Below, piece by piece: positions 37,146-51,459 of a stretch of 64,000 nucleotides of DNA; the first letter of the stretch is position 1, and each line of letters begins with the position of its first letter. Origin of the DNA: Corallococcus macrosporus DSM 14697 (GTDB lineage Bacteria > Myxococcota > Myxococcia > Myxococcales > Myxococcaceae); NCBI RefSeq assembly GCF_002305895.1, contig NZ_CP022203.1, positions 7,846,001 to 7,910,000 of the forward strand. Direction: 5' to 3'. Both the position numbers and the translations under genes were made by a program. Below the pieces are notes generated by a model that did no database searches, was not told the DNA's origin, and saw only the letters and a program-made list of their open reading frames with translations.

Positions 37146-37487
37146 ATGTTCCCCTCCCGTTCCCACCTGCTGGCCTGCCTCCTCCTCCTGCTGCCCCTGG
37201 GGGCCGCGGCCCAATCCGACGGAGGGCTCGACGCGGGCCTGCCCGACGCCTCCGTCGGGGAGGGCGGCGCCGACCGCGACAACCCCGAGGGCGACGACAG
37301 TACAGGCAGGGTGAATACCTCTTGCCGCAGCACCCGGGATTGCTCACCCCGCTTCACCTGCGACGACGGCCTCTGCCGCTACACTGGCGTGCGCCAGGCG
37401 GACCAGCAAGGCTGCGTGCTGGGCGCCCAGGCGGCGCTCGTCGTCGTGGGCCTGGCCGCCGTGGGTGGGTACAGGCGCAGGCGTTAG
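37146..37487 (+). CDS. Small exported protein with Cys-Gly/helix/Arg C-terminal anchor
   Basis: A 113-aa protein with a signal peptide (LLACLLLLLPLGAAAQ). It has an Asp/Gly-rich segment (DGGLDAGLPDASVGEGGAD) and a small Cys cluster (SCRSTRDCSPRFTCDDGLC). The C-terminus has a Gly-Cys, a hydrophobic helix (AALVVVGLAAVGG) and an RRRR end. This tail has the order of a MYXO-CTERM sorting signal (GC, helix, Arg cluster), though the GCGCS core is reduced. It precedes the methyltransferase gene by 10 nt, whose AGGAG overlaps its stop codon. Confidence 0.65.
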   Translation: MFPSRSHLLACLLLLLPLGAAAQSDGGLDAGLPDASVGEGGADRDNPEGDDSTGRVNTSCRSTRDCSPRFTCDDGLCRYTGVRQADQQGCVLGAQAALVVVGLAAVGGYRRRR

Positions 37488-37497
37488 GAGCACACGC

Positions 37498-38541
37498 ATG
37501 AGGCTGGGGCTCAAGGCGGACAACCTGCTGGAGCGCGTGGCGGACTGGCTCAACCTGGCCCCGCAGCCGGTGGCCCAGGCCTTCTTCGGGATGATGGCGT
37601 CGCGCACGCTGATGGCCGGCGCGCGGCTGGGCGTCTACGAGGCCCTGACGGATGGCCCGGTGTCCGCGGAGACGCTGGCGGCGAGGCTGAAGTTGTCCCA
37701 GGAGGGCACCCGCACGCTGCTGGAGGCGCTGGTCGCCTGCGAGGCCGTGGAGCGGCAGCGCGGTGGCCGCTACCGGCTGGCGCCGCGCGCCCGGCGTTGG
37801 TTGGATCCGCGCTCGCCCCGGTACGTGGGGGCCTTCCTGGAGTTCAACTACGCGCAGTGGGACTGGTGGAACGGGCTGGAGGGCGTGGTGCGCAGCGGCG
37901 AGGCGGTGGACATCCACGGCTTCGCGCCCGACGACGCGCGCTGGCGCGACTACATCCACGCCATGCATCAGCTCGCGCGGCTGGCGGCCCCGGAGGTGGC
38001 GGCGGCCATCCCCCTGCCCCGCGGGGCGAAGCAGGTGTTGGACCTGGGCGGCGCGCACGGCTGGTTCGCCGCCGAGCTGTGTCTGCGCAACCGGGGCCTG
38101 AAGGCCACGGTGCTGGACCTGGAAGGCAGCGCCCGCGTGGGCCGGGAGATCATCGCCTCGGCGGGGCTGAGTCACCTGGTCACCCACCGCGAGGGGGACA
38201 TCCTCACCGCGGAGCTGGGCGGCCCGTACGACGGGGTGATGCTCTTTCAAGTGATGCACCACCTGTCCCCCGCGCAGAACGTGGCCCTGCTGCGGCGGGT
38301 GCGCGCCTCGCTGGCGCCCCGGGGGACGCTGGCGGTGCTGGAGTACCTGCGCGAGAGCGCCGACACGCCCACCAGCGCGGCGCCGCTGATCGGCCTGCAC
38401 TACTTCCTCACCTCCGGCGCGGCCGCCTACACGCCCGCCGAGGTGGAGGGCTTCCTGGACGACGCGGGCTTCCGCATCGAACACAGCCGCCCCATCCGCC
38501 ACCTGCCCTTGCAGACGCTCCTGGTCGCTCGGATGGACTGA
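37498..38541 (+). CDS. SAM-dependent O-methyltransferase-like protein (family 2 type)
   Basis: A 347-aa enzyme. Residues 20-110 are the winged-helix dimerisation domain of plant-type O-methyltransferases (SRTLMAGARLGVYEALTDGP, LAARLKLSQEGTRTLLEALV). The Rossmann domain has the SAM motif QVLDLGGAHGWFAAEL (about residue 180), an acidic VLDLEGS, and the motif-IV region YDGVMLFQVMHHLSP. Such enzymes methylate small phenolic or polyketide-like molecules; the substrate is unknown. TTAGGAG lies 7 nt upstream of the ATG. Confidence 0.8.
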   Translation: MRLGLKADNLLERVADWLNLAPQPVAQAFFGMMASRTLMAGARLGVYEALTDGPVSAETLAARLKLSQEGTRTLLEALVACEAVERQRGGRYRLAPRARRWLDPRSPRYVGAFLEFNYAQWDWWNGLEGVVRSGEAVDIHGFAPDDARWRDYIHAMHQLARLAAPEVAAAIPLPRGAKQVLDLGGAHGWFAAELCLRNRGLKATVLDLEGSARVGREIIASAGLSHLVTHREGDILTAELGGPYDGVMLFQVMHHLSPAQNVALLRRVRASLAPRGTLAVLEYLRESADTPTSAAPLIGLHYFLTSGAAAYTPAEVEGFLDDAGFRIEHSRPIRHLPLQTLLVARMD

Positions 38542-38636
38542 GCCTCCACTCAGCCGCCGTCCCGGCGAGCCTGCCCACGGGGAAGACGTCTGCGCTCCCC
38601 TGCCCGCCTCTGGCGGCTTCCGTCGCACCGTTGCCC

Positions 38637-40082
38637 ATGCTTCCCCAAACGCCACTTCCCGAGGACTCTCCGGACGTACCGCTCGCCGTCGACCTGGACG
38701 GCACGCTGGTGCGCACGGACACCCTGCACGAGAACCTGCTCGTCCTCTTCAAGCGCGCGCCCTGGCTGCTGCTGCTGGCGCCATTCTGGGTGCTGAAGGG
38801 CAAGGCCTTCTTCAAGGCGGAGGTGGCCCGGCGTGCCGCCCTGGACGCGGCCAGCCTCCCCTACCACGAGGAGCTCCTGGCCTGGCTGCGCGAGGAGAAG
38901 GCCCGTGGGCGCCGGCTCGTGCTGGCCACCGCGGCGGACCGGCGCATCGCCGACGCGGTGGCGGCGCACCTGGGCCTCTTCTCCGACGTCGTCGCCAGCG
39001 AGGCGACGGTGAACCTGTCCGGCGCGCGCAAGCTGGCGAAGCTCAAGGAGCTCCTGGGCACCTTCGACTATGCGGGCAACGACGGGGTGGACCTGCCCCT
39101 GTGGCGCGAATGCCGCCGCATCGTCGTGGTCCACGCGCATGCGGGCGTGCTGAAGCAGGCGCGAGGCCTGGGCCGCGACGTCCACCGCGTCTTCGAGCGC
39201 CCCGCCACCAGCCTCCGCGTCTGGGTGAAGGCGTTGCGCGTGCACCAATGGGCGAAGAACGCGCTCGTGTTCGTGCCGCTGTTGGCGGCGCACAAGGCCA
39301 CCGAGCCGTCCAAGCTGCTCCAGGCCCTGCTGGCCTTCGCGGCCTTCAGCCTGTGCGCCTCCAGCGTGTACGTGCTGAACGACCTGCTGGACCTGGACGC
39401 CGACCGGCGCCATCCGACGAAGAAGGCGCGCCCCTTCGCGGCCTGCACGCTGCCGGTGAGCACCGGCGTCATGCTGGCTCCCGTGCTGCTGCTGGCCGGC
39501 GCCGCGGTGTGCCTGCTGTTGCCACCCGCCTTCGCCGCCCTGCTGGGCACCTACTACGTGCTGACGCTGGCCTATTCGCTGCGGCTGAAGCAGGTGGTGA
39601 TGCTGGACGTGCTGGTGCTGGCCGGGCTGTACACGGTGCGCATCTTCGGCGGCGCGCTGGCGGTGGACGTGCCCACGTCGAGCTGGCTGATGATGTTCAG
39701 CATGTTCCTCTTCCTCTCGCTCGCGCTGGTGAAGCGCCTGAGCGAGGTGCGGCGGCTGCGGTTGTCCAACGAGACGTCCGCGCACGGCCGAGGCTATCTG
39801 GCCCAGGACTATGAGCAGCTCGCCAGCCTGGGCGCGGCTTCCGGACAGGTGTCCGTGCTGGTGCTCGCGCTCTACATCACCTCCGATGAGGTGACGGCGT
39901 TGTACGCCCACCCCGAGCGGCTGTGGCTCATCTGCCCGGTGATGCTGTACTGGGTGGGCCGGGTGTGGCTGCTGGCCCACCGCGGGCTGGTGAACGAGGA
40001 CCCGCTCGTCTTCGCCCTGAGGGACCGGGTGAGCTACGCCGTGGGCCTCGTGTGCGCGTTGGTGCTATGGGCCGCCACGTGA
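38637..40082 (+). CDS. HAD phosphatase - UbiA prenyltransferase fusion
   Basis: A 481-aa fusion. Residues 1-190 are a haloacid-dehalogenase domain: nucleophile motif LAVDLDGTLVRTDTL and motif II LVLATAADRR. Residues 200-481 are a UbiA-family membrane prenyltransferase of eight or nine helices. It has the Asp-rich motifs VYVLNDLLDLDADRRHPTKK (NDxxDxxxD type) and YSLRLKQVVMLDVLVLAGLY. The UbiA part resembles mycobacterial phosphoribose-polyprenyl-phosphate synthase (Rv3806c type). With the DprE1- and DprE2-like genes right behind it (13 and 24 nt gaps), it may make a polyprenyl-phospho-ribose and dephosphorylate it. Confidence 0.85.
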   Translation: MLPQTPLPEDSPDVPLAVDLDGTLVRTDTLHENLLVLFKRAPWLLLLAPFWVLKGKAFFKAEVARRAALDAASLPYHEELLAWLREEKARGRRLVLATAADRRIADAVAAHLGLFSDVVASEATVNLSGARKLAKLKELLGTFDYAGNDGVDLPLWRECRRIVVVHAHAGVLKQARGLGRDVHRVFERPATSLRVWVKALRVHQWAKNALVFVPLLAAHKATEPSKLLQALLAFAAFSLCASSVYVLNDLLDLDADRRHPTKKARPFAACTLPVSTGVMLAPVLLLAGAAVCLLLPPAFAALLGTYYVLTLAYSLRLKQVVMLDVLVLAGLYTVRIFGGALAVDVPTSSWLMMFSMFLFLSLALVKRLSEVRRLRLSNETSAHGRGYLAQDYEQLASLGAASGQVSVLVLALYITSDEVTALYAHPERLWLICPVMLYWVGRVWLLAHRGLVNEDPLVFALRDRVSYAVGLVCALVLWAAT

Positions 40083-40095
40083 GAGGTCTGGCGCG

Positions 40096-41490
40096 ATGAA
40101 GGCACGGGAGTCCTGGGGGCGCTACCCCCAAGTCGAACAAGAGACGCACGCCCTGGTGTGGCGCACGGACGCCCTGCCCCAGAAGGGCGGCAGCCTGCTG
40201 CCCCACGGCCTGGGGCGCAGCTACGGCGACTCATGCCTCAACGCGGGCGGCACGCTGCTGCTGACCTCGGGGCTGGACCGCTTCATCGCCTTCGACCCGG
40301 CCACGGGCGTGGTCCGCTGTGAAGCAGGCGTGTCGCTGGACACGATTCTGCGGCTGGCCGCGCCGCGCGGCTGGTTCCTGCCGGTGACGCCGGGCACCAA
40401 GTTCGTGACGGTGGGCGGCGCCATCGCCAACGACGTGCACGGGAAGAACCACCACCGGGGCGGCTCCTTCGGCCGCTACGTGCGCCGCTTCGAGTTGGTG
40501 CGCTCGGACGGCAGCCGGCGGGTGTGCGCGCCGGATGAGCACCCGGACTGGTACGGCGCGACGATTGGCGGCCTGGGCCTCACCGGGCTCGTCACGTGGG
40601 CCGAAATCCAGCTCAAGCCCATCAGCAACCCGTACGTGCTCCAGGAGACGGTGCCCTTCGGGAACCTGGATGGGTTCCTCGACGTCGCCCGCGCGTCGGA
40701 GAAGGACTACGAGTTCACCATGGCCTGGGTGGACTGCCTGGCCCGAGGCAGGAAGCTGGGACGCGGGCTCCTGTACCGGGGCAACTTCGCGCCGCCGCAG
40801 TTCGACGGACTGCCGCTGGCCAGGAGCCACCTGTCGCACGGCGTGGGGCTGGCGGTGCCCATGGACATGCCAGCCTTCTGCCTCAACCGGCTGTCGGTGT
40901 CCGCCTTCAACTGGCTCTATTACCACCGGCAGAACGGCAAGCCGAAGCAGCGGCTGACGCACTACGACCCGTTCTTCTACCCGCTGGACGCCATCTACGG
41001 ATGGAATCGCATCTACGGCCGGCGCGGCTTCCTCCAGTTCCAGTGCGTGGTGCCCTATTCGACGGCGCGTGATGCGTTGAAGGAAATCCTGGAGCGCAGC
41101 TCGCGCGGCGGGCTGCCCAGCTTCCTGTCGGTGCTGAAGACCTTCGGCGACCTCCCGTCCCCCGGGTGGCTGTCCTTCCCGCGCGAGGGCGTGACGCTGG
41201 CCATGGACTTCGCCAACCGCGGCGAGAAGACGTGGAAGCTGGTGGAGGACCTGGACCGGCTCACACGGCAGGCGGGCGGCGCGGTGTATCCGGCGAAGGA
41301 CGCGCGGATGAGCCCGGAGAGCTTCGCGGCGTACTTCCCGCAGCGTGAGCGCTTCATGCAGTACGTGGACCCGTCGTTCTCCTCGTCGTTCTGGCGGCGG
41401 GTGAATCCGGTGTCCCTGCCCTTCTCCCTGGCCGCGGAGCGGGGCGCGACGGCGTCCCCGCCGCCGCGGTCCCTGCTTGCCATCCGCTGA
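40096..41490 (+). CDS. FAD-dependent oxidase, DprE1-like
   Basis: A 464-aa vanillyl-alcohol-oxidase-fold flavoenzyme. The FAD-binding PP-loop is LLPHGLGRSYGDSCLNAGGT, followed by VTPGTKFVTVGGAIANDVHG and KNHHRGGSFGRYV. This set is typical of decaprenylphosphoryl-beta-D-ribose 2'-oxidase (DprE1), as is the C-terminal region with the KDARMSPESFAAYFP motif. DprE1 oxidises the 2-hydroxyl of the ribose; the keto product is reduced by DprE2 to the arabinose donor. The next gene is a DprE2-like reductase. I did not verify the cysteine/loop that contacts benzothiazinone drugs. Confidence 0.88.
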   Translation: MKARESWGRYPQVEQETHALVWRTDALPQKGGSLLPHGLGRSYGDSCLNAGGTLLLTSGLDRFIAFDPATGVVRCEAGVSLDTILRLAAPRGWFLPVTPGTKFVTVGGAIANDVHGKNHHRGGSFGRYVRRFELVRSDGSRRVCAPDEHPDWYGATIGGLGLTGLVTWAEIQLKPISNPYVLQETVPFGNLDGFLDVARASEKDYEFTMAWVDCLARGRKLGRGLLYRGNFAPPQFDGLPLARSHLSHGVGLAVPMDMPAFCLNRLSVSAFNWLYYHRQNGKPKQRLTHYDPFFYPLDAIYGWNRIYGRRGFLQFQCVVPYSTARDALKEILERSSRGGLPSFLSVLKTFGDLPSPGWLSFPREGVTLAMDFANRGEKTWKLVEDLDRLTRQAGGAVYPAKDARMSPESFAAYFPQRERFMQYVDPSFSSSFWRRVNPVSLPFSLAAERGATASPPPRSLLAIR

Positions 41491-41514
41491 CCTTCCTCCC
41501 GAGATTCGCCCCCT

Positions 41515-42252
41515 ATGAAGAAAGTGCTCGTCCTCGGCGCCACCAGCGCCATTGCCCAGGCGACGGTGCGGCTGCTCGCCGCGCGCGGGGCCTCGCTGTA
41601 CCTCACCAGCCGCAACGCGGAGAACCTGGACGCGGTGACGAAGGACGCCGCCACGCGCGGCGCGGCGAAGGTGGCGTCGCAGGTGGTGGACCTGAACGAC
41701 TTCGACAGCCACGAGGCGCTGGTGGAGGCCGCGTACACGGCGCTGGACGGGCTGGACGGCGTGGTGCTGGCGCACGGCGTGCTGGGAGACCAGGCGGAGG
41801 CGCAGCGTTCATGGACGGCGACGGAGGCGGTGCTGCGCACCAACTTCCTGAGCGCGGTGTCGCTGCTGACGGTGCTGGCCAACCGCTTCGAGGCGCAGAA
41901 GGCCGGCACGCTGGTGGTGATTTCGTCGGTGGCGGGTGACCGCGGCCGGCAGAGCAACTACGTGTACGGCGCGTCGAAGGGCGCGCTCAACGTCTTCCTC
42001 CAGGGCCTGCGCAACCGGCTGGCGAAGTCCAACGTCGCGGTGGTGACGGTGAAGCCGGGCTTCGTCGACACGCCGATGACGGCGCACCTGCCGAAGAACA
42101 AGCTGTTCGCCTCGCCGGAGAAGGTGGCGCGCGGGCTGCTGAGCGCCGCGGACTCGCGGAAGAACGAGGTCTACGTGCCCGGCATCTGGGCGCTCATCAT
42201 GCTCATCATCCGGACGATTCCGGAGACGGTGTTCAAGCGCATGAAGCTGTGA
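41515..42252 (+). CDS. Short-chain dehydrogenase, DprE2-like
   Basis: A 245-aa SDR. Cofactor motif VLVLGATSAIAQATVRLLA, LAHGV (NNAG-type), catalytic Ser in ISSVAGDRGR, and the Tyr-x-x-x-Lys pair in YVYGASKGAL. The C-terminal segment VKPGFVDTPMTAHLPKNKLF and the hydrophobic end (WALIMLIIRTIPETVFKRM) fit decaprenylphosphoryl-2-keto-ribose reductase DprE2. It lies 24 nt after the DprE1-like gene and completes the pair. Confidence 0.85.
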   Translation: MKKVLVLGATSAIAQATVRLLAARGASLYLTSRNAENLDAVTKDAATRGAAKVASQVVDLNDFDSHEALVEAAYTALDGLDGVVLAHGVLGDQAEAQRSWTATEAVLRTNFLSAVSLLTVLANRFEAQKAGTLVVISSVAGDRGRQSNYVYGASKGALNVFLQGLRNRLAKSNVAVVTVKPGFVDTPMTAHLPKNKLFASPEKVARGLLSAADSRKNEVYVPGIWALIMLIIRTIPETVFKRMKL

Positions 42253-42280: not shown

Positions 42281-42317
42281 TGATAGCGCAGCTCTCATGG
42301 GCTGAGCTGCGCTATCA
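42281..42317. terminator. Perfect 14-bp bidirectional terminator covering a stop codon
   Basis: TGATAGCGCAGCTC pairs without mismatch with GAGCTGCGCTATCA across a 9-nt loop. It follows the DprE2-like gene by 28 nt. Its right arm contains the TGA stop of the convergent metallo-hydrolase gene (42315-42317). It can therefore end both transcripts. Confidence 0.75.
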
Positions 42318-43379
42318 ATCCAGCACGGGCACGTCTCGGCCCTCGCCGAAGCCCAGGGCCCAGAAGCGCGGGCGCCTGGGCTCACGGGCCAGCAACCACA
42401 GCAGGTGGTACTTCGCCTCGTCCTGGCCATCCAGCGCGAGCGCGAAGGTGCCGTAGTGCATCGCCACCGACGTGGAGGAGCGCAGCACCTTGTGCGCCTG
42501 GAGCGCTTCCACCGGCCCCATGTGCACGGGCCGGAAGGCCGTGGGCCGGTAGGCGCCAATGGGCAGGATGGACAGCCGCATGGGCCCGAAGCGCTCGGCC
42601 ACCATCCCGAAGTGCGGACCGAAGCCCGTGTCCCCAGCGAAGAGCACCGGCCCGCCGGACGTGGAGAGCACGTAGCCCGCCCAGAGCGTCGCCGCGTTGT
42701 CGGTGAGCCCGCGGTTGGAGCGGTGCTGCGCCGGCACCGCCGTCACCGTGCGGCCCGGCGCCACCTCGGTGGACTGCCACCAGTCCAGCTCCACCACGTT
42801 CTGGAAGCCCTCATCGTCCAGCAGCGCCTTGTTGCCCAGGCCCACGATGAAGCGCGGGTGGTGCGCCTCCTCCAGACGCCGCAGCGTCGGCAGGTCCATG
42901 TGGTCGTAGTGGTTGTGGCTCACCACCACCACGTCGATGGGTGGCAGGTCCTCGAAGCGGATGCCCGGAGGCCGCACGCGCTTGGGCCCGATGAAGGGCA
43001 CCGGGCTCGGCCGGTCCGAATAGATGGGGTCCGTCAGCATGTTGAGGCCGTCCGCCTGGACGAGCACGGTGGCGTGGTTGATGAACGTCACCCGGAGCTG
43101 CCCCGACCCCACGCGCTCCGGTGGCGGCTTTCCCGGAGGCAGATCCTCATATGCACGCCAGGGACCGCGAGGCCCCTTGCGCAGCGCCTTGAAGACCTCG
43201 TCCGCGCTCAGGCGTTTGACGGGCTCCAGGTTCTCGAACCGCTCACCGTCGAAGTGGTCCGTCACCGGTCCTTGGTGACGGGGACCCGCGAAGAGGCAGC
43301 CTCCGAGCCACGGCGCCGTCATCAGCAACACCAACGGCAGCCACTTCGTCACGGGCCGGGAAGGACGGTCCAGGGACAT
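42315..43379 (-). CDS. Metallo-beta-lactamase-fold lipoprotein (NAPE-PLD/UlaG-like)
   Basis: A 354-aa lipoprotein; the lipobox is in TAPWLGGCLFAG (Cys at about residue 27). The body is an MBL fold of the type seen in N-acyl-phosphatidylethanolamine phospholipase D: FINHATVLVQ, LTDPIYSDRPSP, the metal motif VVSHNHYDHMD (HxHxDH), FAGDTGFGPHF and a late VAMHYGTF. It may hydrolyse a phospholipid-like or other phosphodiester at the envelope. The ATG at 43379 has GGAG 9 nt upstream. It is downstream of the FAD oxidoreductase gene of the polyketide cluster by 186 nt, so membership in that cluster is uncertain. Confidence 0.85.
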   Translation of the reverse strand: MSLDRPSRPVTKWLPLVLLMTAPWLGGCLFAGPRHQGPVTDHFDGERFENLEPVKRLSADEVFKALRKGPRGPWRAYEDLPPGKPPPERVGSGQLRVTFINHATVLVQADGLNMLTDPIYSDRPSPVPFIGPKRVRPPGIRFEDLPPIDVVVVSHNHYDHMDLPTLRRLEEAHHPRFIVGLGNKALLDDEGFQNVVELDWWQSTEVAPGRTVTAVPAQHRSNRGLTDNAATLWAGYVLSTSGGPVLFAGDTGFGPHFGMVAERFGPMRLSILPIGAYRPTAFRPVHMGPVEALQAHKVLRSSTSVAMHYGTFALALDGQDEAKYHLLWLLAREPRRPRFWALGFGEGRDVPVLD

Positions 43380-43565
43380 GGGTGCGACGCTCCATCCAGA
43401 CAGGACAGGGAAGACGCCCGCGCGGCCCGGGCCCTGAGTCCACGTCTCGGCGCGGCAGTGGACCGGGTTTGCGGCCGTCCGGCAACCGGAATGCAATAGC
43501 CCCCCGAAGCGCTGCACGACCGGTGTCATCCAACGGCGACTGCGCGAGGACCTCCCGTCCGGCGC

Positions 43566-44663
43566 TCAGGTCACGATGCCGTGCAGGATTCGCTCGAACA
43601 GCCAGGGCGTCTTGCCCAGCAGCCGCACCACGGGGCGGCGCAGCCACGGCCGCCGCGCCAGCATGAGCAACCCTCCCGTCGACCGGGAGTACTTGCGGAA
43701 GACACGCTGGAAGCACTGCTCGTAAGGCGCCAGCGACTCCCGCGTGGCGCCCTGGATGAGCGCCTCCGGCAGCAGGTTCCCCAGCGACTCCGCGCACACG
43801 AAGGCCAGGGACATGCCCTCTCCGGTAATGGCATCCACGTAGCCCGCCGCGTCGCCCACCAGCGCGAAGCGGTCCGCGATTCTCGCCCGGGACACCCGCG
43901 CCAGGGGCCCCGCGCCGCGCGGCTGCGAATCCGTCTCCACGCCCGAAAGCCGCGCCTCCAGCGCAGGGAAGCGGGACAGCAGCGACTCGAAGCTCACGCG
44001 TCCCTCCACCACGCCGTCCTCCCAGAGGAAGGCCAGGCCCACGCGCCGCACGCCCGTGGGCGTCACGTAGGCCTCCACGCCCCGCGCGAAGTAGATCTCC
44101 ACGAAGGGCGTCCACGGCGCGAGGACGAAGTGCCGGCGCAGGCCGAAGCGGCGCGGCCCGGTGGGCTCCACCTCCAAGCCCTCCGCGCGGCGCAGCGGCG
44201 AGGCCAGCCCGTCCGCGGCCACCAACATGGCGGCCTCCACGGAGCCCTCCGCCGTCCGCAGGACAACGCCGTTGCCGCTCCGCTGATGGGACAGCACCTG
44301 CGTACGCTCACGCAGCTCCACGCCCACCGTGCGTGCCCGGGACACCAGCGCCGACGCCAGCGCCACGCGCCGCACGCCCAACGCGCCCTTGCCTGGGAGC
44401 AGCCCCTCCGCCGTGCTGCCATCCTCCTGAACGTAGCGGATGCCCACGAAGGGATGGCTGCCCTGGTCGTCCAGCAATGGCAGGACGCCCAGCCGCTCCA
44501 TCACCGCCATTCCGGGAGGCAGCAGGCCCTCGCCGCAGGCCTTGTCCACGGGCGCGCGACCGCGCTCCAGCACGACGGTGTTCAACCCGCGCAGCGCGGT
44601 GGTGATGGCCACCGCCATCCCCGCGGGCCCGCCTCCCACCACGGCGACGTCATACCGCTTCAC
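43566..44663 (-). CDS. FAD-dependent oxidoreductase (PHBH fold / geranylgeranyl-reductase-like)
   Basis: A 365-aa flavoprotein. FAD motifs: YDVAVVGGGPAGMAVAITTA (GxGxxG) with LERG, VAADGLASPLRR (DG motif) and FALVGDAAGYVDAITGEGMS (GD motif). Such enzymes either hydroxylate aromatic rings or reduce isoprenoid chains. Near a type III polyketide synthase, members such as SrsC of Streptomyces hydroxylate alkylresorcinols to quinone-type lipids. I infer a similar role here. It starts 237 nt downstream of the acyl-AMP ligase on the same strand; the gap contains no other gene I can support. Confidence 0.85.
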   Translation of the reverse strand: MKRYDVAVVGGGPAGMAVAITTALRGLNTVVLERGRAPVDKACGEGLLPPGMAVMERLGVLPLLDDQGSHPFVGIRYVQEDGSTAEGLLPGKGALGVRRVALASALVSRARTVGVELRERTQVLSHQRSGNGVVLRTAEGSVEAAMLVAADGLASPLRRAEGLEVEPTGPRRFGLRRHFVLAPWTPFVEIYFARGVEAYVTPTGVRRVGLAFLWEDGVVEGRVSFESLLSRFPALEARLSGVETDSQPRGAGPLARVSRARIADRFALVGDAAGYVDAITGEGMSLAFVCAESLGNLLPEALIQGATRESLAPYEQCFQRVFRKYSRSTGGLLMLARRPWLRRPVVRLLGKTPWLFERILHGIVT

Positions 44664-44900
44664 GGCGTGGACTCCTTCGGGGCTCGCACTCCCATGACGG
44701 CGGGCCTCATACCGGCGCCGGCCTCGCCCGCGCGGACAGCAGCCGCGTGTCCTGCTTCCGGGTGATTCTCGGCGCCGCCGGAACAGGATGACAACGCCTC
44801 TCGCGCCGACAGCGACCGCGCGGTGGGCGCCTTCACGCGCCCCCTCGCATGACGCTCGCCGCCAGCGAGCGAGGAGCCCCGCCTCCCACCGCCGCCAGCC

Positions 44901-46679
44901 TCAGGTGTCGCGCTCCGCGCGAACCATCGCCAGCGCGCTCTTGGCCATCTCCACCGCGAGCCCCACCGCGCCCACCTTCTTCGGCGGCGCCAGCGCTTCC
45001 GCCAGATAGCGCCGCAGCGCCTCGGCGCGGCGCAGCTTGCCGCTGGACGTGCGCGGCAACGTCCCCGGCTCCAGCAGCCGCACGGTGTGAGGCCGCACGC
45101 CCGTGGCCTCCACCACCACGGTGCGGATGCGCTGCTCGACCACGTCATCCGCCTCGTCCCCTGCGCGCTCAGCCAGGATGAGGAGCGCCTCGTCCTCGCC
45201 GCCCTCGGGCGTGAAGCCGAGCGCCACCGCGCAGCCCGTGCGCACGCCCTCCACGTTCTGCAGCGGCTCCTCGAAGGCCTGGGGCGCGTGGTTCGCCCCG
45301 CGGATGATGACCACGTCCTTCGCCCGGCCCGTGAGGTACAGCTCACCGTCCGCGAGGAAGCCCAAATCTCCGGTGTCCAGCCACCCGTCCCGCGTCAGCG
45401 TCCGGTCCGTGGCCTGCGCGTCCGCGAAGTAGCCGGACATGAGCGACGGCCCCCGCGCGAAGACCCGGCCCACGTGTCGCTCCGCGAGCGGCTCGCCCGC
45501 CTCGCCGCGCACCTCCACCTCGAAGCCCGCCACCGGCCTGCCCACGCTCACCAGCTCGCGCGAGCCCTCCGCCACCCGGCCCTCCCGGGCCAGCAGCGCC
45601 GCGTCCACCCCCAGCGCGCGAGGCCCCCGGCCCGCCGGCGGGAAGGTGACGGCGAGCGACGCCTCGGACAGCCCGTACACCGGACGCAGCGCCCGCGCGG
45701 AGAAGCCCCACCGCTCGAAGCGCCGCGCGAAGCGGCGCAGCGTGTCCGCGGAAACCGGCTCCGCGCCGTTGAGCGCGTGCCGCCACGACGACAGGTCCAC
45801 GCCCTCCAGCTCCGAGTCCCTCACCCGCTTCAAGCACAGCCCATAGGCGAAGTTGGGCGCGGGCGAGATGTAGGCCCGGTGCCGTGACAGCGCGCGCAGC
45901 CACAGCGAGGGCCGCGCGAGGAAGACCTCGGGCGGAATCAGCACCAGGCTGCCCGGGTAGTACAGCGCGGCCAGCAGACAGCCGATGAGCCCCATGTCGT
46001 GGTACAGCGGCAGCCAGCTCACGCCCACCCGGGGCACGTCCGGCCCCAGCGGCATCTCCACCTCCAGCGCCGCGACCTGCGCCAGCAGCGCCTCGTGCGT
46101 CAGCGTCACCGGCTTCGGGTCCACCGTGGAGCCGGAGGAGAACTGGATGAGCCCCAGCGCGCCGGGCCGCACGGCGGCCTCCAGCACGTCATCGCCCTTG
46201 GACACCTCGTCCACCGTGTGACAGCCCAGCCGGGGACGCGCGCGCTCCACGCTGGGCCCCAGCAGCAGCCGCACCCGGCTGTCCGTCAGCACCATCACCG
46301 CGCCCGTCACGTGGAGCATCCGCGAGGTGGCGCGGTGGTACTCCTCCAGGCGCCCCAGCCGCACGGGCGGGTACAGCGGCACCGGCACCGCGCCCGCCAG
46401 CAACGTGCCGAAGAAGGCGTCCATGAAGGCCGGCGACGTGGGCAGCAGCAAGGCCACCCGGTCGCCCTCGCGCACGCCCAGCCGCGCCAGCCCCGCCGCG
46501 GTCCGCTTCGCCCGGCGGTACACCTCCGCCCAGGGCAGGGACACCTCGCGCTCGGCCGCGTCCACGAAGGTGAGGCCCAGCGGGGACGTGGTGCCCGTGG
46601 CCGCGAGCGCCGCGTTCACCGTGGCGTGCCTCCGAGCCGGCAGCGCCGGCCCCACCAGCCGCGAGCCCGCGTCCGTCAC
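44901..46679 (-). CDS. Fatty acyl-AMP ligase (FAAL)
   Basis: A 592-aa adenylating enzyme. The AMP-binding P-loop is IQFSSGSTVDPKPVTLTHEA, then WLPLYHDMGLIGCLL (typical of FAALs), YGLSEASLAVTFPP, and the hinge DTGDLGFLADGELYLTGRAKD. The catalytic Lys lies in RTSSGKLRR near the C-terminus. FAALs activate a fatty acid as acyl-AMP and transfer it to an acyl carrier protein instead of CoA. A carrier protein gene is directly upstream and overlaps in a GTGA junction (GTG start at 46679), so the pair should load a starter for the type III synthase. Confidence 0.9.
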   Translation of the reverse strand: MTDAGSRLVGPALPARRHATVNAALAATGTTSPLGLTFVDAAEREVSLPWAEVYRRAKRTAAGLARLGVREGDRVALLLPTSPAFMDAFFGTLLAGAVPVPLYPPVRLGRLEEYHRATSRMLHVTGAVMVLTDSRVRLLLGPSVERARPRLGCHTVDEVSKGDDVLEAAVRPGALGLIQFSSGSTVDPKPVTLTHEALLAQVAALEVEMPLGPDVPRVGVSWLPLYHDMGLIGCLLAALYYPGSLVLIPPEVFLARPSLWLRALSRHRAYISPAPNFAYGLCLKRVRDSELEGVDLSSWRHALNGAEPVSADTLRRFARRFERWGFSARALRPVYGLSEASLAVTFPPAGRGPRALGVDAALLAREGRVAEGSRELVSVGRPVAGFEVEVRGEAGEPLAERHVGRVFARGPSLMSGYFADAQATDRTLTRDGWLDTGDLGFLADGELYLTGRAKDVVIIRGANHAPQAFEEPLQNVEGVRTGCAVALGFTPEGGEDEALLILAERAGDEADDVVEQRIRTVVVEATGVRPHTVRLLEPGTLPRTSSGKLRRAEALRRYLAEALAPPKKVGAVGLAVEMAKSALAMVRAERDT

Positions 46680-46957
46680 GGGAGGGCCTCCTCCGCCACG
46701 GGCTCCGCCGGCGCCGCGACGCGCCGAGCCACCAGCCTGGCCAGGTCCCCCACCGTGCGCACGCCCTGCGCATCCTCTTCGGACAGCCGGATGCGGAAGC
46801 GATTCTCCAGCCCGACCGCCAACACCGTGAGCCCCAGGCTGTCCAACTGGAGGTCGCGCACCAGGTCCTGTCCCGGCTCGACCGCGCCCTTCCACTCCAG
46901 CTCGTCGGTGACGATGCGGTGAATCTCCGCCAGGACCTCCAGTTCGGGCTCAGCCAC
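46676..46957 (-). CDS. Acyl carrier protein
   Basis: A 93-aa carrier protein. The phosphopantetheine attachment Ser is in DLVRDLQLDSLGLTVLAVGL (D-S-L at about residue 40). Helix 3 follows with RLSEEDAQGVRTVGDLARLV, and a Pro/Ala tail ends it. The GTG start at 46957 overlaps the end of the methyltransferase gene by 8 nt; the stop overlaps the FAAL start. It should carry the fatty starter made by the FAAL to the type III polyketide synthase. Confidence 0.88.
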   Translation of the reverse strand: MAEPELEVLAEIHRIVTDELEWKGAVEPGQDLVRDLQLDSLGLTVLAVGLENRFRIRLSEEDAQGVRTVGDLARLVARRVAAPAEPVAEEALP

Positions 46958-47525
46958 GTGGCACCTCCGGGATGAAGCGGGGACGGTGGGAGAACGCCTG
47001 CGCGTATACCTCACCCAGCGCCGCCTCCTCCGCGCGGATTCGCACGTAGAGCAGCGCCGCGTTGCCCACCGAGAAGACAAGGGCCGTCCACCACGCACCA
47101 TGGATGAGCGGCACGCACGCCAGTTCCAGCACCACCGCGACATAGTTGGGATGGCGCAGGAAGCGATAGGGCCCGCCCGTCACCGGCGCCAGCCCCGGCA
47201 CCACGATGATGCGCGAGTTCCACCGGTCGCCCAGCGTGGCGATGGCCCAGTACCGCAGCCCCTGCGCCAGCACCGCGCCCGCCAGCGCCGCCCAACCCCA
47301 CGCGCCCGGGAAGCCGCGCCGCAGCCCGAACACCTCCGCCACGCACGCCACCAGGAACAGCGTGTGGAACACCACCATGAAGCGGTAGTGCCGCTGCCCC
47401 GTCTCCACGCCGCCCCGCGCGAAGGCCCGGGCGGCGTTGCGATTGGAGAGCACCAGCTCCACCAGCCGCTCCACGACGAGCGCGGCCATGAAGCCCAGGA
47501 AGAGGGCCTGGGTGGAGGTCACCAT
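46950..47525 (-). CDS. Isoprenylcysteine carboxyl methyltransferase-like membrane enzyme
   Basis: A 191-aa membrane protein with about five helices. The C-terminal motif VTGGPYRFLRHPNYVAVVLE and the later EEAALGEVYAQAF (E-E-x-x-L) are the SAM-binding signature of the ICMT family. In Bacillus BpsB and Streptomyces SrsB, enzymes of this kind next to a type III polyketide synthase O-methylate alkylpyrones or alkylresorcinols. The ATG at 47525 overlaps the PKS stop by 7 nt; a GTG at 47522 would give a GTGA junction. Confidence 0.87.
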   Translation of the reverse strand: MVTSTQALFLGFMAALVVERLVELVLSNRNAARAFARGGVETGQRHYRFMVVFHTLFLVACVAEVFGLRRGFPGAWGWAALAGAVLAQGLRYWAIATLGDRWNSRIIVVPGLAPVTGGPYRFLRHPNYVAVVLELACVPLIHGAWWTALVFSVGNAALLYVRIRAEEAALGEVYAQAFSHRPRFIPEVPRG

Positions 47526-48616
47526 CGCAGCAGCACCATCTCCGCGCCGAAGCCCGGCCCCATGGCCATCATCACGCCCCAGTCCCCCGGCTGCGCCTGG
47601 ACCTGCTCCAGCGTCTCGCCCAGCACGAAGAGCACCGACGCGGAGGACAGGTTGCCCACCTCGCGCAGGGAGGCCCACGAGCGCGCGAGCGTCGCGGGCG
47701 CCAGCTCCAGCGCCTCCTCGAAGGCCTCCAGCACCTTGGGGCCGCCGGTGTGCGCCACCCAGTGCCGGATGTCCTGGCGCTTCAGGCCGTGCGCCTCGAG
47801 GAAGCCGTCCACGTTGCCGCGGATGTGGTCCTTCACCAACCCCGGCACCTTGGCGGACAGCACCACCTTGAAGCCGGTGTCCACCACGTCCCAGCCCATG
47901 ATGCGCTCGGTGTCCGGGTAGAACACGGAGCGCGACGCCACCACCCGCGGCCCCTGGCCCCCCGGCGCCGCCGCGCCCCGGAGCACCGCGCACGCGGCGC
48001 CGTCACCGAAGAGGCCGGAGGCGATGATGTTCGGGATGGACAGGTCCTCGCGCTGCAACGTGAGCGAGCACAGCTCCACGGCGATGACCAGCGCCGTGTG
48101 CTCCGGGAAGCCGCGCAGGTAGTCCGCCGCCCGCGCCACGCCCGCCGCGCCCGCCACGCACCCCAACCCGAAGAGCGGCGTGCGCTTGAAGTCCTCACGC
48201 AGGCGCAGGCGGTTGGCCAGCCGCGCGTCGATGCTGGGCGTGGCGATGCCCGTCACCGTGACGAAGAAGACGTGGTCCACGTCCCGCGGCGTCAGCTCCG
48301 CCGCCTCCAGGGCCTTTCGCGCCACCGTCTCCCCCAGCTCCGTGGCCGAGCGAATCCAGGCGTCATTGCGCTGCTGGAACGTCACCAGTGAGGGGTAGTC
48401 CTCCAGGGGCCGCGCCAGGTGCCGTCCGCCCACCTGCACCGCGCGGTGCAGGTCCTCCAACCGCTCCAGGTTGAAGTGCCGCGTGGCCCACAACTCACGG
48501 AACGCGGCGATGAGCTGCTCCTGGCTGGCGTAATGCGGCGGCAGCGCCCGCCCCACGGCGCGGATGAAGGGCGAGCGGTCCTGGCCTGAGGCACTGAGCA
48601 TGGTGTTCCCGGTCAT
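47519..48616 (-). CDS. Type III polyketide synthase (chalcone/stilbene synthase family)
   Basis: A 365-aa homodimeric thiolase-fold enzyme. The catalytic triad is visible: Cys in LFGLGCVAGAAGV (about residue 150), His in HWVAHTGGPKVLEA (about 285) and Asn in VGNLSSASVLFVL (about 318). The GFGPG-like loop is MAMGPGFGAEMVLL near the C-terminus. It extends an acyl starter with malonyl-CoA to make alkylpyrones or alkylresorcinols. It is the first gene of a four-gene overlapping operon with methyltransferase, carrier protein and FAAL. An inverted repeat lies just upstream. Confidence 0.93.
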   Translation of the reverse strand: MTGNTMLSASGQDRSPFIRAVGRALPPHYASQEQLIAAFRELWATRHFNLERLEDLHRAVQVGGRHLARPLEDYPSLVTFQQRNDAWIRSATELGETVARKALEAAELTPRDVDHVFFVTVTGIATPSIDARLANRLRLREDFKRTPLFGLGCVAGAAGVARAADYLRGFPEHTALVIAVELCSLTLQREDLSIPNIIASGLFGDGAACAVLRGAAAPGGQGPRVVASRSVFYPDTERIMGWDVVDTGFKVVLSAKVPGLVKDHIRGNVDGFLEAHGLKRQDIRHWVAHTGGPKVLEAFEEALELAPATLARSWASLREVGNLSSASVLFVLGETLEQVQAQPGDWGVMMAMGPGFGAEMVLLRW

Positions 48617-48792: not shown

Positions 48793-50409
48793 TCAGCGCC
48801 GGACGAAGGCGGCCACCAGCAGCAGGAGCAGGGCCCACGACAACCCGCCCGACGCGGACGAACAGCCACAGCCGCCTTCGTCGGGCGGTGGAGGCTCGCC
48901 CGGCCCGGCACCACCGTCCGGGTCACCTCCGGTGCCCGCGTCCACGCCGCCATCCGGCGCACCGATGACGCCACCGTCCGGGTCGCTCCCGGTGCCGGCG
49001 TCCGCCCCACCATCGGGGTCGCTCCCGGTCCCACCGTCCGGGTCTGGCGGGGGGGCGCCCACGCAGGTCGCCCCGGAGTCCTCGCCGGAGATGCACAGCC
49101 GACCGTAGCGGCCCACGCCTTCGAGCCGTCCATCCACCACCGCGACGATGACGTGTGTCGCGTCCCCGGCGTCCACGCGGGCCGACAGGCTCCCCGCGCC
49201 ATCCGCGCGCGAGACGCGCAGCACCTGCGTCGGTGTCACCGCGGCCACCAGCAGGTGGACGGCGGGGGAGTCCACCCCCGGGGTGGGTTCAAAGGACGCC
49301 GTGACGGAGGGCGCGCCACCCTCCACCTCGAAGTAGCGCGTCGACGCGGCCGCCACCCGCACGGAGGGCTCCGACACCGGCAGCGCGCGAGCGGCGACGG
49401 TCAGCGGCGCGTAGCCCGCGCCATGCTCATACCCCGCGCCCCGCGGCCGGCGCGCCCCGGTGGCCAGGTTCCACAGCGCGAACTCGGCGAAGGCGGTGTC
49501 GAAGTCGGCGCCCCAGTCGCGTCGCAGCGCCGTCTCCACCAGCACCGGCCAGCGGACCGACGGCGTCACGATGCTCGCCTCCCACAGCGCGCGCACCACG
49601 CCATCCCCGAAGCGCTCGCCCAGGAACTGGAAGTAGATGCCCGTGCCATAGCTGAAGGACACCGCGGGCCCTTCCGGGTCCAGCACCAGGGTGCGGTCCG
49701 GACGCGACAGGTACGCAGCGGTGAAGCGCTCCAGGTCATCCAGCGCGGGCCGGTAGCGCTCACTGGCCCAGACCGCGGTGCCTTCCGAAGCCACGCTGCC
49801 CAGCCCCGGGTGATAGGCGGCCTGCACCGCGTGGAAGAACTCGTGGCTGGCCAGGATGTCCACCGCCTCCTCGTAAGAGGGGTAGCTGTAGCCCGCGAAG
49901 TCGTTCTCCTGGAGCATGTGCCCGGTGCACCGCGACGCCTCCTCCAGACAGCCGTCCAGCCGGAAGGCGCCGTCAGCGACTCCGCCGAAGTCCACCAGGT
50001 ACACGTCGAAGCGGCCGTCGCCGCCGTTGTCGCTCCCCACCCAGCCGTCACCCGGCGGCAGGCGGAAGCCCAGCCCTTCGTAGAAGACGGCGACGCGGTC
50101 ATACGCGGCCGCCACCGTCTCCACCGCGTCCGGAATACCGCTCCCGTCCGAGTCCGCCGCCGGCACGGCGTTGGAGCCCGACCGGGAGAAGTGGATTCGG
50201 AAGAGTCCCCCAGGGGACACCACCGACTCCACCGCCTCGCCCTCGTCGAAGCGCGGCGGCATCGCCGAGGGCGAGGTGGGGCGCGCTCCCGCTTGCATCC
50301 CCGCCTCCCACGTCACGAACGCGTCGTGACGCTCGTGCGGTTCACGCGGAGCCTGCTGGACAGGCCCACACCCGAAAGGGAGCAGCAGGAGCAGCGCCCG
50401 GAGCCTCAT
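48793..50409 (-). CDS. MXAN_6640-like putative metalloprotease with MYXO-CTERM anchor
   Basis: A 538-aa exported protein. The lipoprotein signal LLLLLPFGCGP has its Cys at about residue 14. The middle has SDSDGSGIPD-like calcium-type sequence (ADSDGSGIPDAVETV) and the zinc motif ILASHEFFHAVQAAYH (HExxH) with a downstream Glu in SEGTAVWASE. A linker of DPDGG repeats leads to GGCGCSSASGG, a hydrophobic helix and RR, the MYXO-CTERM sorting signal. It is thus probably a cell-surface protease. I recall MXAN_6640 as a family name for such proteins, unverified. Its ATG overlaps the stop of the HmuY-like gene (ATGA). Confidence 0.85.
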   Translation of the reverse strand: MRLRALLLLLPFGCGPVQQAPREPHERHDAFVTWEAGMQAGARPTSPSAMPPRFDEGEAVESVVSPGGLFRIHFSRSGSNAVPAADSDGSGIPDAVETVAAAYDRVAVFYEGLGFRLPPGDGWVGSDNGGDGRFDVYLVDFGGVADGAFRLDGCLEEASRCTGHMLQENDFAGYSYPSYEEAVDILASHEFFHAVQAAYHPGLGSVASEGTAVWASERYRPALDDLERFTAAYLSRPDRTLVLDPEGPAVSFSYGTGIYFQFLGERFGDGVVRALWEASIVTPSVRWPVLVETALRRDWGADFDTAFAEFALWNLATGARRPRGAGYEHGAGYAPLTVAARALPVSEPSVRVAAASTRYFEVEGGAPSVTASFEPTPGVDSPAVHLLVAAVTPTQVLRVSRADGAGSLSARVDAGDATHVIVAVVDGRLEGVGRYGRLCISGEDSGATCVGAPPPDPDGGTGSDPDGGADAGTGSDPDGGVIGAPDGGVDAGTGGDPDGGAGPGEPPPPDEGGCGCSSASGGLSWALLLLLVAAFVRR

Positions 50410-51353
50410 GGCAGGAAGGCCCACTTCACGCGGAGCTGACCCGAGCCGCTCGGCACACCCGACGGCAGCTCGTTGTTCGCGTTGCAGTGCTCCTGCACGG
50501 GCACGTCGTAATAGGACGTCACCTCGAACTTCACGTGACGGCCGTCGGCCAGACTGATGATGAAGACCTCCCCCGTCATCCGCACGCAGCCCTCGTAGGC
50601 CCAGAAGCTGCTCAGCGCCATCGTCGGGCCGGCGAGGCCCGAGTTATCCGGGAGGAACTCACACGCGTCGGTGAACCAGGCGTCCGACTGGAAGGTCAGG
50701 TCCGCGGGCACGGCGTTCACGGTCTCGAAGCGGGTGCCCATGGGCAACCGCGCCACGCCGACGCAGGACGGGCCGGACGTTCCGCCGTTCACCCGGATGT
50801 AGTAGCGGCGGAACGCGATGTCCCAGCCCGGGTCACCCAGCGACGTCTGGTCATCGATGCTGACCCGGGACAGGCCCTCGGGCGTGAAGCGGGCGTAGGT
50901 GTAGGACTGGTTCACCGAGAGGCCACCCGCGCGGGCGTCGATGTAGGAACGGAACTCGCCCGCGGGCGCCTCCTCCTCGTACATCGGCGACGTCGACGGC
51001 GTGGTGAGCAGGTTCAGCCGGTCGATGCTCTGCTCGCTGCAGGGCACGTCGCTCTGGCACAGCGGCTCGGTGCCCGCGTCCGGCTCCGGCTCGGTGCCCG
51101 CGTCCGGCTCGGGCTCGGTGCCAGCGTCCGGCTCGGGCTCGGTGCCCGCGTCAGGCTCCGGCTCGGTTCCAGAGTCCGGCGTCGGGTTCGTCCCGGAGTC
51201 CGCCGTCTGCCCCGCGTCAGGCACCGGGGTGGGGTCCTCCTCGGACGAACCACAGTTCACCAACAGGGCCAGCGCCATCGCCACGGCGGCCAGCACCCAC
51301 AGGCCCTGCTTGCCGGCCTTCGTGTGCATCGCTTCTTCGGTGTGAGTCTTCAT
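50406..51353 (-). CDS. HmuY family haem-binding lipoprotein
   Basis: A 315-aa lipoprotein. The lipobox is in LALLVNCGSSE (Cys at about residue 34), followed by Pro-Asp/Glu repeats. The mature domain has the HmuY outline: QSYTYARFTPEGLSRV, the core motif DPGWDIAFRRYYIRVNGGT, and strands VFIISLADGRHVKFEVTSYY. HmuY captures haem outside the cell and passes it to a TonB receptor; no receptor gene is in the window. The ATG at 51353 has GGGAGAGGG upstream; a second ATG at 51329 is possible. A Fur-box-like site lies about 107 nt upstream. The next gene is a putative surface protease. Confidence 0.82.
   Translation of the reverse strand: MKTHTEEAMHTKAGKQGLWVLAAVAMALALLVNCGSSEEDPTPVPDAGQTADSGTNPTPDSGTEPEPDAGTEPEPDAGTEPEPDAGTEPEPDAGTEPLCQSDVPCSEQSIDRLNLLTTPSTSPMYEEEAPAGEFRSYIDARAGGLSVNQSYTYARFTPEGLSRVSIDDQTSLGDPGWDIAFRRYYIRVNGGTSGPSCVGVARLPMGTRFETVNAVPADLTFQSDAWFTDACEFLPDNSGLAGPTMALSSFWAYEGCVRMTGEVFIISLADGRHVKFEVTSYYDVPVQEHCNANNELPSGVPSGSGQLRVKWAFLP
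51066..51170 (-). repeat. 24-bp tandem repeat encoding EPEPDAGT in the HmuY-like linker
   Basis: Four copies of a 24-bp unit encode Glu-Pro-Glu-Pro-Asp-Ala-Gly-Thr just after the lipidation site, preceded by related Pro-Asp-Ser-Gly-Thr units. The copies differ only at wobble positions (CCGGCTCCGG or CCGGCTCGGG). The length of this stalk should vary between strains. Confidence 0.8.
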
Positions 51354-51459
51354 CAACGGCCCTCTCCCTCGAATGGTGCGGAGCCGGAGACCACCGACGG
51401 CCAGGACAGGACGCACACGTCGCTGTGCCATTCCGGCCTCCGCGCGTGGCACCCTAGTT

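Follow-up and report, generated by a model that had tools for sequence, protein, structure and literature searches.

Which lipid is made by a type III polyketide locus that carries its own fatty acyl-AMP ligase (FAAL) and carrier protein, and must its synthase be fed from that carrier? The question is raised by five genes on the minus strand of the window, a stretch of 64,000 nucleotides from the genome of Corallococcus macrosporus DSM 14697 (one contig, 8.97 Mb). A preliminary description of the locus had proposed a fatty acid starter that is loaded directly onto the carrier instead of CoA, and an O-methylated alkylpyrone or alkylquinone-type lipid as the product.

The five genes and their proteins

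In the order of transcription the genes code for the synthase, an ICMT-family methyltransferase, the carrier, the FAAL and an FAD enzyme. The Pfam assignments (Chal_sti_synt_N/C, ICMT, PP-binding, AMP-binding and FAD_binding_3) gave the same five families as the preliminary description. Its layout of four overlapping genes followed by an FAD oxidoreductase gene was likewise found: synthase and methyltransferase genes overlap by 7 bases, methyltransferase and carrier genes by 8, carrier and FAAL genes by 4 (GTGA), and the FAD gene starts 237 bases past the FAAL stop, with GAAGGAGTCCACGCC directly before its GTG start. Gene starts were set to those conserved with M. xanthus AM003. The coordinates described earlier are right overall, apart from the synthase start at 48616; in relatives a conserved ATG (48601) lies five codons downstream, which is probably the genuine start.

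Features of the locus. Positions are those of the window; identities are between proteins.
Feature	Position	Strand	Evidence
Type III polyketide synthase (FtpA orthologue), 360 aa	47519..48601	-	Pfam Chal_sti_synt_N/C; 94% to M. xanthus AM003
ICMT-family integral-membrane methyltransferase (SrsB-like), 191 aa	46950..47525	-	PF04140 5e-28; 98% to M. xanthus
Stand-alone acyl carrier protein, 93 aa	46676..46957	-	PF00550 4.7e-8; 89% to M. xanthus
Fatty acyl-AMP ligase, 592 aa	44901..46679	-	AMP-binding 3.1e-59; NCBIfam FAAL 455 bits; FAAL 3PBK; 90% to M. xanthus
FAD-dependent oxidoreductase (SrsC position), 365 aa	43566..44663	-	PF01494 (FAD_binding_3) 2.9e-21; 91% to M. xanthus
FAAL-FAD intergenic gap, 237 bases	44664..44900	-	sequence

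The synthase has the thiolase fold domains and the Cys-His-Asn triad of a type III enzyme. The triad consists of Cys153, His289 and Asn322 (numbered in the 365-aa reading frame from 48616), the corresponding motifs are FGLGCVAGA, WVAHTGGPK and EVGNLSS, and the catalytic residues are invariant in an alignment of 13 rows. The nearest solved structure is Pks11 of M. tuberculosis (E 8e-96). PMC5916927 describes a Trp that is conserved among bacterial synthases forming resorcinols; Trp242 in the motif MGWDV, invariant in 13 relatives and aligned with Pks11, may be this residue.

The best NCBIfam match of the ligase is the fatty acyl-AMP ligase family NF006624 with 455 bits, which does not reach the family's own cut-off of 600. 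Its best solved structures are FAALs, with CoA ligases scoring far lower; 3PBK, the best of them, was aligned nearly end to end without a large gap, and the ligase may possess the FAAL-specific insertion. As judged from the family scores and the 3PBK alignment, the ligase is a FAAL and not a CoA ligase. Among the orthologues of the other proteins, the RHPNY motif of the methyltransferase is kept, the phosphopantetheine site LDSLGL of the carrier is kept in most and its Ser in all, and the FAD enzyme likewise retains its motifs across the family.

A gene for a metallo-beta-lactamase-fold protein with a lipobox-like LGGC (42315-43529, minus strand) lies 36 bases past the FAD gene. As a possible sixth gene of the cassette it was dismissed, because it adjoins the other five only in close Myxococcus relatives, is farther away in other relatives and was not found in the Corallococcus loci. 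Further along, the plus strand carries a HAD-UbiA fusion (PRK08238, 663 bits), a DprE1-like oxidase and a DprE2-like reductase (38571-42252), a block adjoining the cassette that resembles a decaprenylphosphoryl-arabinose-like pathway known from mycobacteria. It is preceded by an O-methyltransferase gene (37465-38541) and is located near the cassette in several relatives too. On the other side, the minus strand codes for a predicted secreted protein (48793-50424), whose C-terminus with a Cys-rich GGCGC, a hydrophobic segment and Arg resembles a MYXO-CTERM sorting signal, and for a lipoprotein-like reading frame with a run of TEPEPDAG repeats (50406-51452).

The ftp locus and its proposed product

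M. xanthus AM003 has the same five genes as the window, in the same order and with the same lengths, and the proteins are 89-98% identical to those of AM003 (individual values in the table). The differences fall mostly at third codon positions (39/29/100 over the three positions for the FAAL gene), which indicates coding selection and not chance. In the tree the window synthase groups with M. xanthus (100/96), and by its synthase the window belongs to a Myxococcus next to M. xanthus. The record 'Comamonas sp. KCTC 72670' is also Myxococcus by sequence, with 82-96% identity to the window genes in the same order, and is apparently mislabelled. A single Chal_sti_synt_C protein is present in the window genome and in AM003. 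The same count was obtained for 25 of the 27 genomes searched within the genus, the window's included, and of the other two one has three and one has none. Elsewhere in the window genome there is a second, weak match to PF00195 (28 bits).

The M. xanthus synthase has been named FtpA, and its products are further oxidised to alkylquinones (PMC10896814). The title of Hayashi et al. (2011; doi 10.1002/cbic.201100344), as cited there, names the involvement of a FAAL in alkylresorcylic acid production by FtpA. Alkylresorcylic acid is listed among FAAL products with C18:0 as substrate on the basis of in vitro data (PMC11837247), and the M. xanthus alkylresorcylic acid locus has served as a reference elsewhere (PMC5006271). 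In 2021 an M. xanthus FAAL was reported to load an M. xanthus carrier, a transfer abolished by a Ser-to-Ala exchange in the carrier (PMC8460268); the two proteins have neighbouring UniProt accessions (Q1CXX0 and Q1CXW9) and are likely the ftp pair. A FAAL-loaded carrier that feeds the synthase, as envisaged in the preliminary description, is thus reported for the M. xanthus orthologues in passages of PMC10896814, PMC11837247 and PMC8460268.

Given the orthology and the single synthase per genome, we take the window locus to be the ftp locus of M. xanthus. We put at roughly 90% the probability that this is the ftp operon from a near Myxococcus relative of M. xanthus, with a FAAL-carrier-synthase-tailoring route to a methoxylated quinone or hydroquinone lipid. 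Besides orthology and the synthase count, the assignment draws on the citing papers. Chemistry of the locus that could plausibly have passed for new turns out to be published chemistry.

In the proposed pathway the FAAL would convert a long-chain fatty acid to acyl-AMP and pass the acyl group to the phosphopantetheine arm of the carrier, as reported for the M. xanthus proteins and expected here from 89-90% identity. The synthase would take over the acyl group, add malonyl and possibly methylmalonyl units, and close the ring to an alkylresorcylic acid, the product described for M. xanthus FtpA and the expected first product here. By analogy with SrsB, whose activity is called decarboxylative O-methylation in the title of Nakano 2012 (cited in PMC5916927), the methyltransferase may methylate this acid with loss of CO2. 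The FAD enzyme, by analogy with SrsC, may then hydroxylate the ring, which would yield a methoxylated quinone or hydroquinone membrane lipid. O-methylation and hydroxylation of the product are thus predicted from the Srs enzymes, and quinones are probably derived from the alkylresorcylic acid.

Within this pathway the FAD step is the least sure one, because the protein scores higher against geranylgeranyl reductases than against UbiH hydroxylases: the geranylgeranyl-reductase superfamily is the best NCBIfam match with 119 bits, compared with 66 bits for the UbiH-type families, both below the cut-off. The enzyme might accordingly be one that reduces an isoprenoid or alkyl chain instead of hydroxylating a ring, in which case the end product would not be a quinone. 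We regard this as improbable. The nearest matches in a profile search are PyrE3 and digeranylgeranylglycerophospholipid reductase, with the ring oxygenase PyrE3 marginally first, and the top solved structures are a mixture of oxygenases and reductases. Moreover, the counterparts in actinobacterial three-gene loci (39-43% identity) take the position of SrsC, which has been reported to be a hydroxylase (PMC6669644).

The ring hydroxylase reading, which we prefer, agrees with the quinone part of the product proposed earlier, which is plausible in view of the oxidation to alkylquinones (PMC10896814); the alkylpyrone part is not supported, since M. xanthus forms alkylresorcylic acid and an alkylpyrone would not be expected from the locus. 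The alkylpyrone label also comes from a 2025 survey of Myxococcota, in which a conserved type III cluster is given 20-63% similarity to the alkylpyrone-407 cluster (MIBiG BGC0001831; PMC12766979). That the cassette is such an alkylpyrone cluster seems very improbable to us: the literature assigns alkylresorcylic acid to the M. xanthus synthase, and alkylpyrone-407, from strain MCy9487, was selected by way of a pentapeptide repeat gene (PMC9231227), whereas no such gene lies near the synthase, the PF00805 matches in the window genome being about 700 kb or more away. An alkylpyrone cluster with a second synthase of M. xanthus was considered too and rejected, as AM003 has one synthase only. We suggest that the 'alkylpyrone' cluster of the survey is probably this locus under another name; by orthology, the conserved myxobacterial type III cluster so labelled in surveys is more likely the alkylresorcylic acid locus ftp.

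Starter and tailoring genes in relatives

The synthase was identified in 127 of 193 genomes searched within the phylum (E <= 1e-40), and arrangements were determined from the flanks of about 40 synthase genes together with the named loci. The commonest arrangement (a) is the five-gene cassette, which occurs in Myxococcaceae and other families of the order; most Myxococcaceae loci have the gene order of the window. Arrangement (b), synthase, methyltransferase and FAD gene without carrier and FAAL, has three occurrences: among actinobacteria, in a single genome farther off in the phylum, and in a Myxococcaceae clade (G128, G136, G143, G153 and G183). The five genomes of the clade gave no carrier match, and any FAAL in them is at 41% or below. 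Since five-gene loci surround the clade in the tree (forks supported by 99/96 outside and 86/91 just around it), loss of the starter module is the simplest reading.

The FAAL-less clade bears directly on how the synthase is fed. It retains synthase, methyltransferase and FAD enzyme, and FtpA itself uses long-chain acyl-CoA starters (PMC5916927), so that the FAAL may not be obligatory. The synthase might then be fed mainly by acyl-CoA like SrsA, with FAAL and carrier serving a special acyl chain only or another pathway. This we consider unlikely, as the FAAL and carrier genes overlap those for methyltransferase and synthase, the synthase keeps both as neighbours in cassettes that methyltransferase and FAD enzyme have left, and a published title together with in vitro data assigns the product to the FAAL route. 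For the claim of a carrier-bound starter in place of CoA, the FAAL-carrier route stands as reported, but strict dependence on it is weakened by the acyl-CoA use of FtpA and by the FAAL-less clade.

Arrangement (c) consists of synthase, carrier and FAAL without methyltransferase and FAD enzyme. Two groups have it, one of Hyalangium-type genomes and one next to Archangium, and their positions in the tree imply at least two events. Plain loss of the two tailoring genes was considered and rejected, as they lie side by side elsewhere in six of the seven arrangement-(c) genomes tested; in the seventh, the draft G144, both are absent. The unlinked pairs, five of the six having been fetched, occur in two different neighbourhoods. 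In the tree they group as a single clade (100/100) adjacent to the linked pairs, so that relocation of the very same copies is not supported either; an old second copy appears to have taken over, and the pattern does not look like a recent transposition. In five genomes whose methyltransferase is linked, this was the sole match. Together this supports, short of proof, a function of the methyltransferase-FAD pair in the pathway of the synthase. Arrangement (d) is represented by two genomes (G063 and G090), which have no methyltransferase beside the synthase or elsewhere in the genome.

Additional synthases were also seen. At four loci of relatives (L107, L108, L109 and L117) there is, within a few kb of the cassette and pointing the other way, another type III synthase gene; it is distantly related (about 30% identity) and accompanied by its own FAAL. 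At L078 (G025:C1:3805000-3822000) large PKS-like reading frames and a FAAL-like gene are joined by yet another type III synthase and an ICMT-like gene, which has the look of a hybrid pathway.

From these arrangements we lean towards a view of the ftp cassette as two exchangeable modules round one synthase, a starter module (carrier and FAAL) and a tailoring module (methyltransferase and FAD enzyme); on this view, loss of the starter module would have occurred in one Myxococcaceae clade, and genomes whose cassette lacks the tailoring pair would retain it as an unlinked locus. If this is true, the relatives are natural experiments on the need of the synthase for a carrier-bound starter, and the same synthase with and without a FAAL offers a direct route to testing what the FAAL adds.

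Comparison with known systems

The Mor1 cluster from a bacterial associate of Moorea producens resembles the M. xanthus alkylresorcylic acid pathway in gene order and with 47-58% identity; it belongs to a different lineage, and its product was not found there (PMC5006271). The cylindrocyclophane pathway, which comprises a stand-alone FAAL, a carrier, a type I PKS and the type III PKS CylI, likewise places a FAAL-loaded carrier ahead of its type III synthase, but type I modules stand in between and CylI is a more distant synthase. The likeness to srsABC of Streptomyces griseus pointed out in the preliminary description is supported by the actinobacterial three-gene loci, which hold this synthase, methyltransferase and FAD enzyme: srsABC codes for a type III synthase, an ICMT methyltransferase and an FAD monooxygenase in that order. 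However, it has neither FAAL nor carrier and uses acyl-CoA starters, whereas the window has both genes, so that its locus is not of the three-gene type. Closest is the ftp locus of M. xanthus, from which nothing of substance differs; the gap before the FAD gene is about 80 bases there, compared with 237 in the window. The ftp system is real, already published and widespread in myxobacteria, and the modular comparison is the new part.
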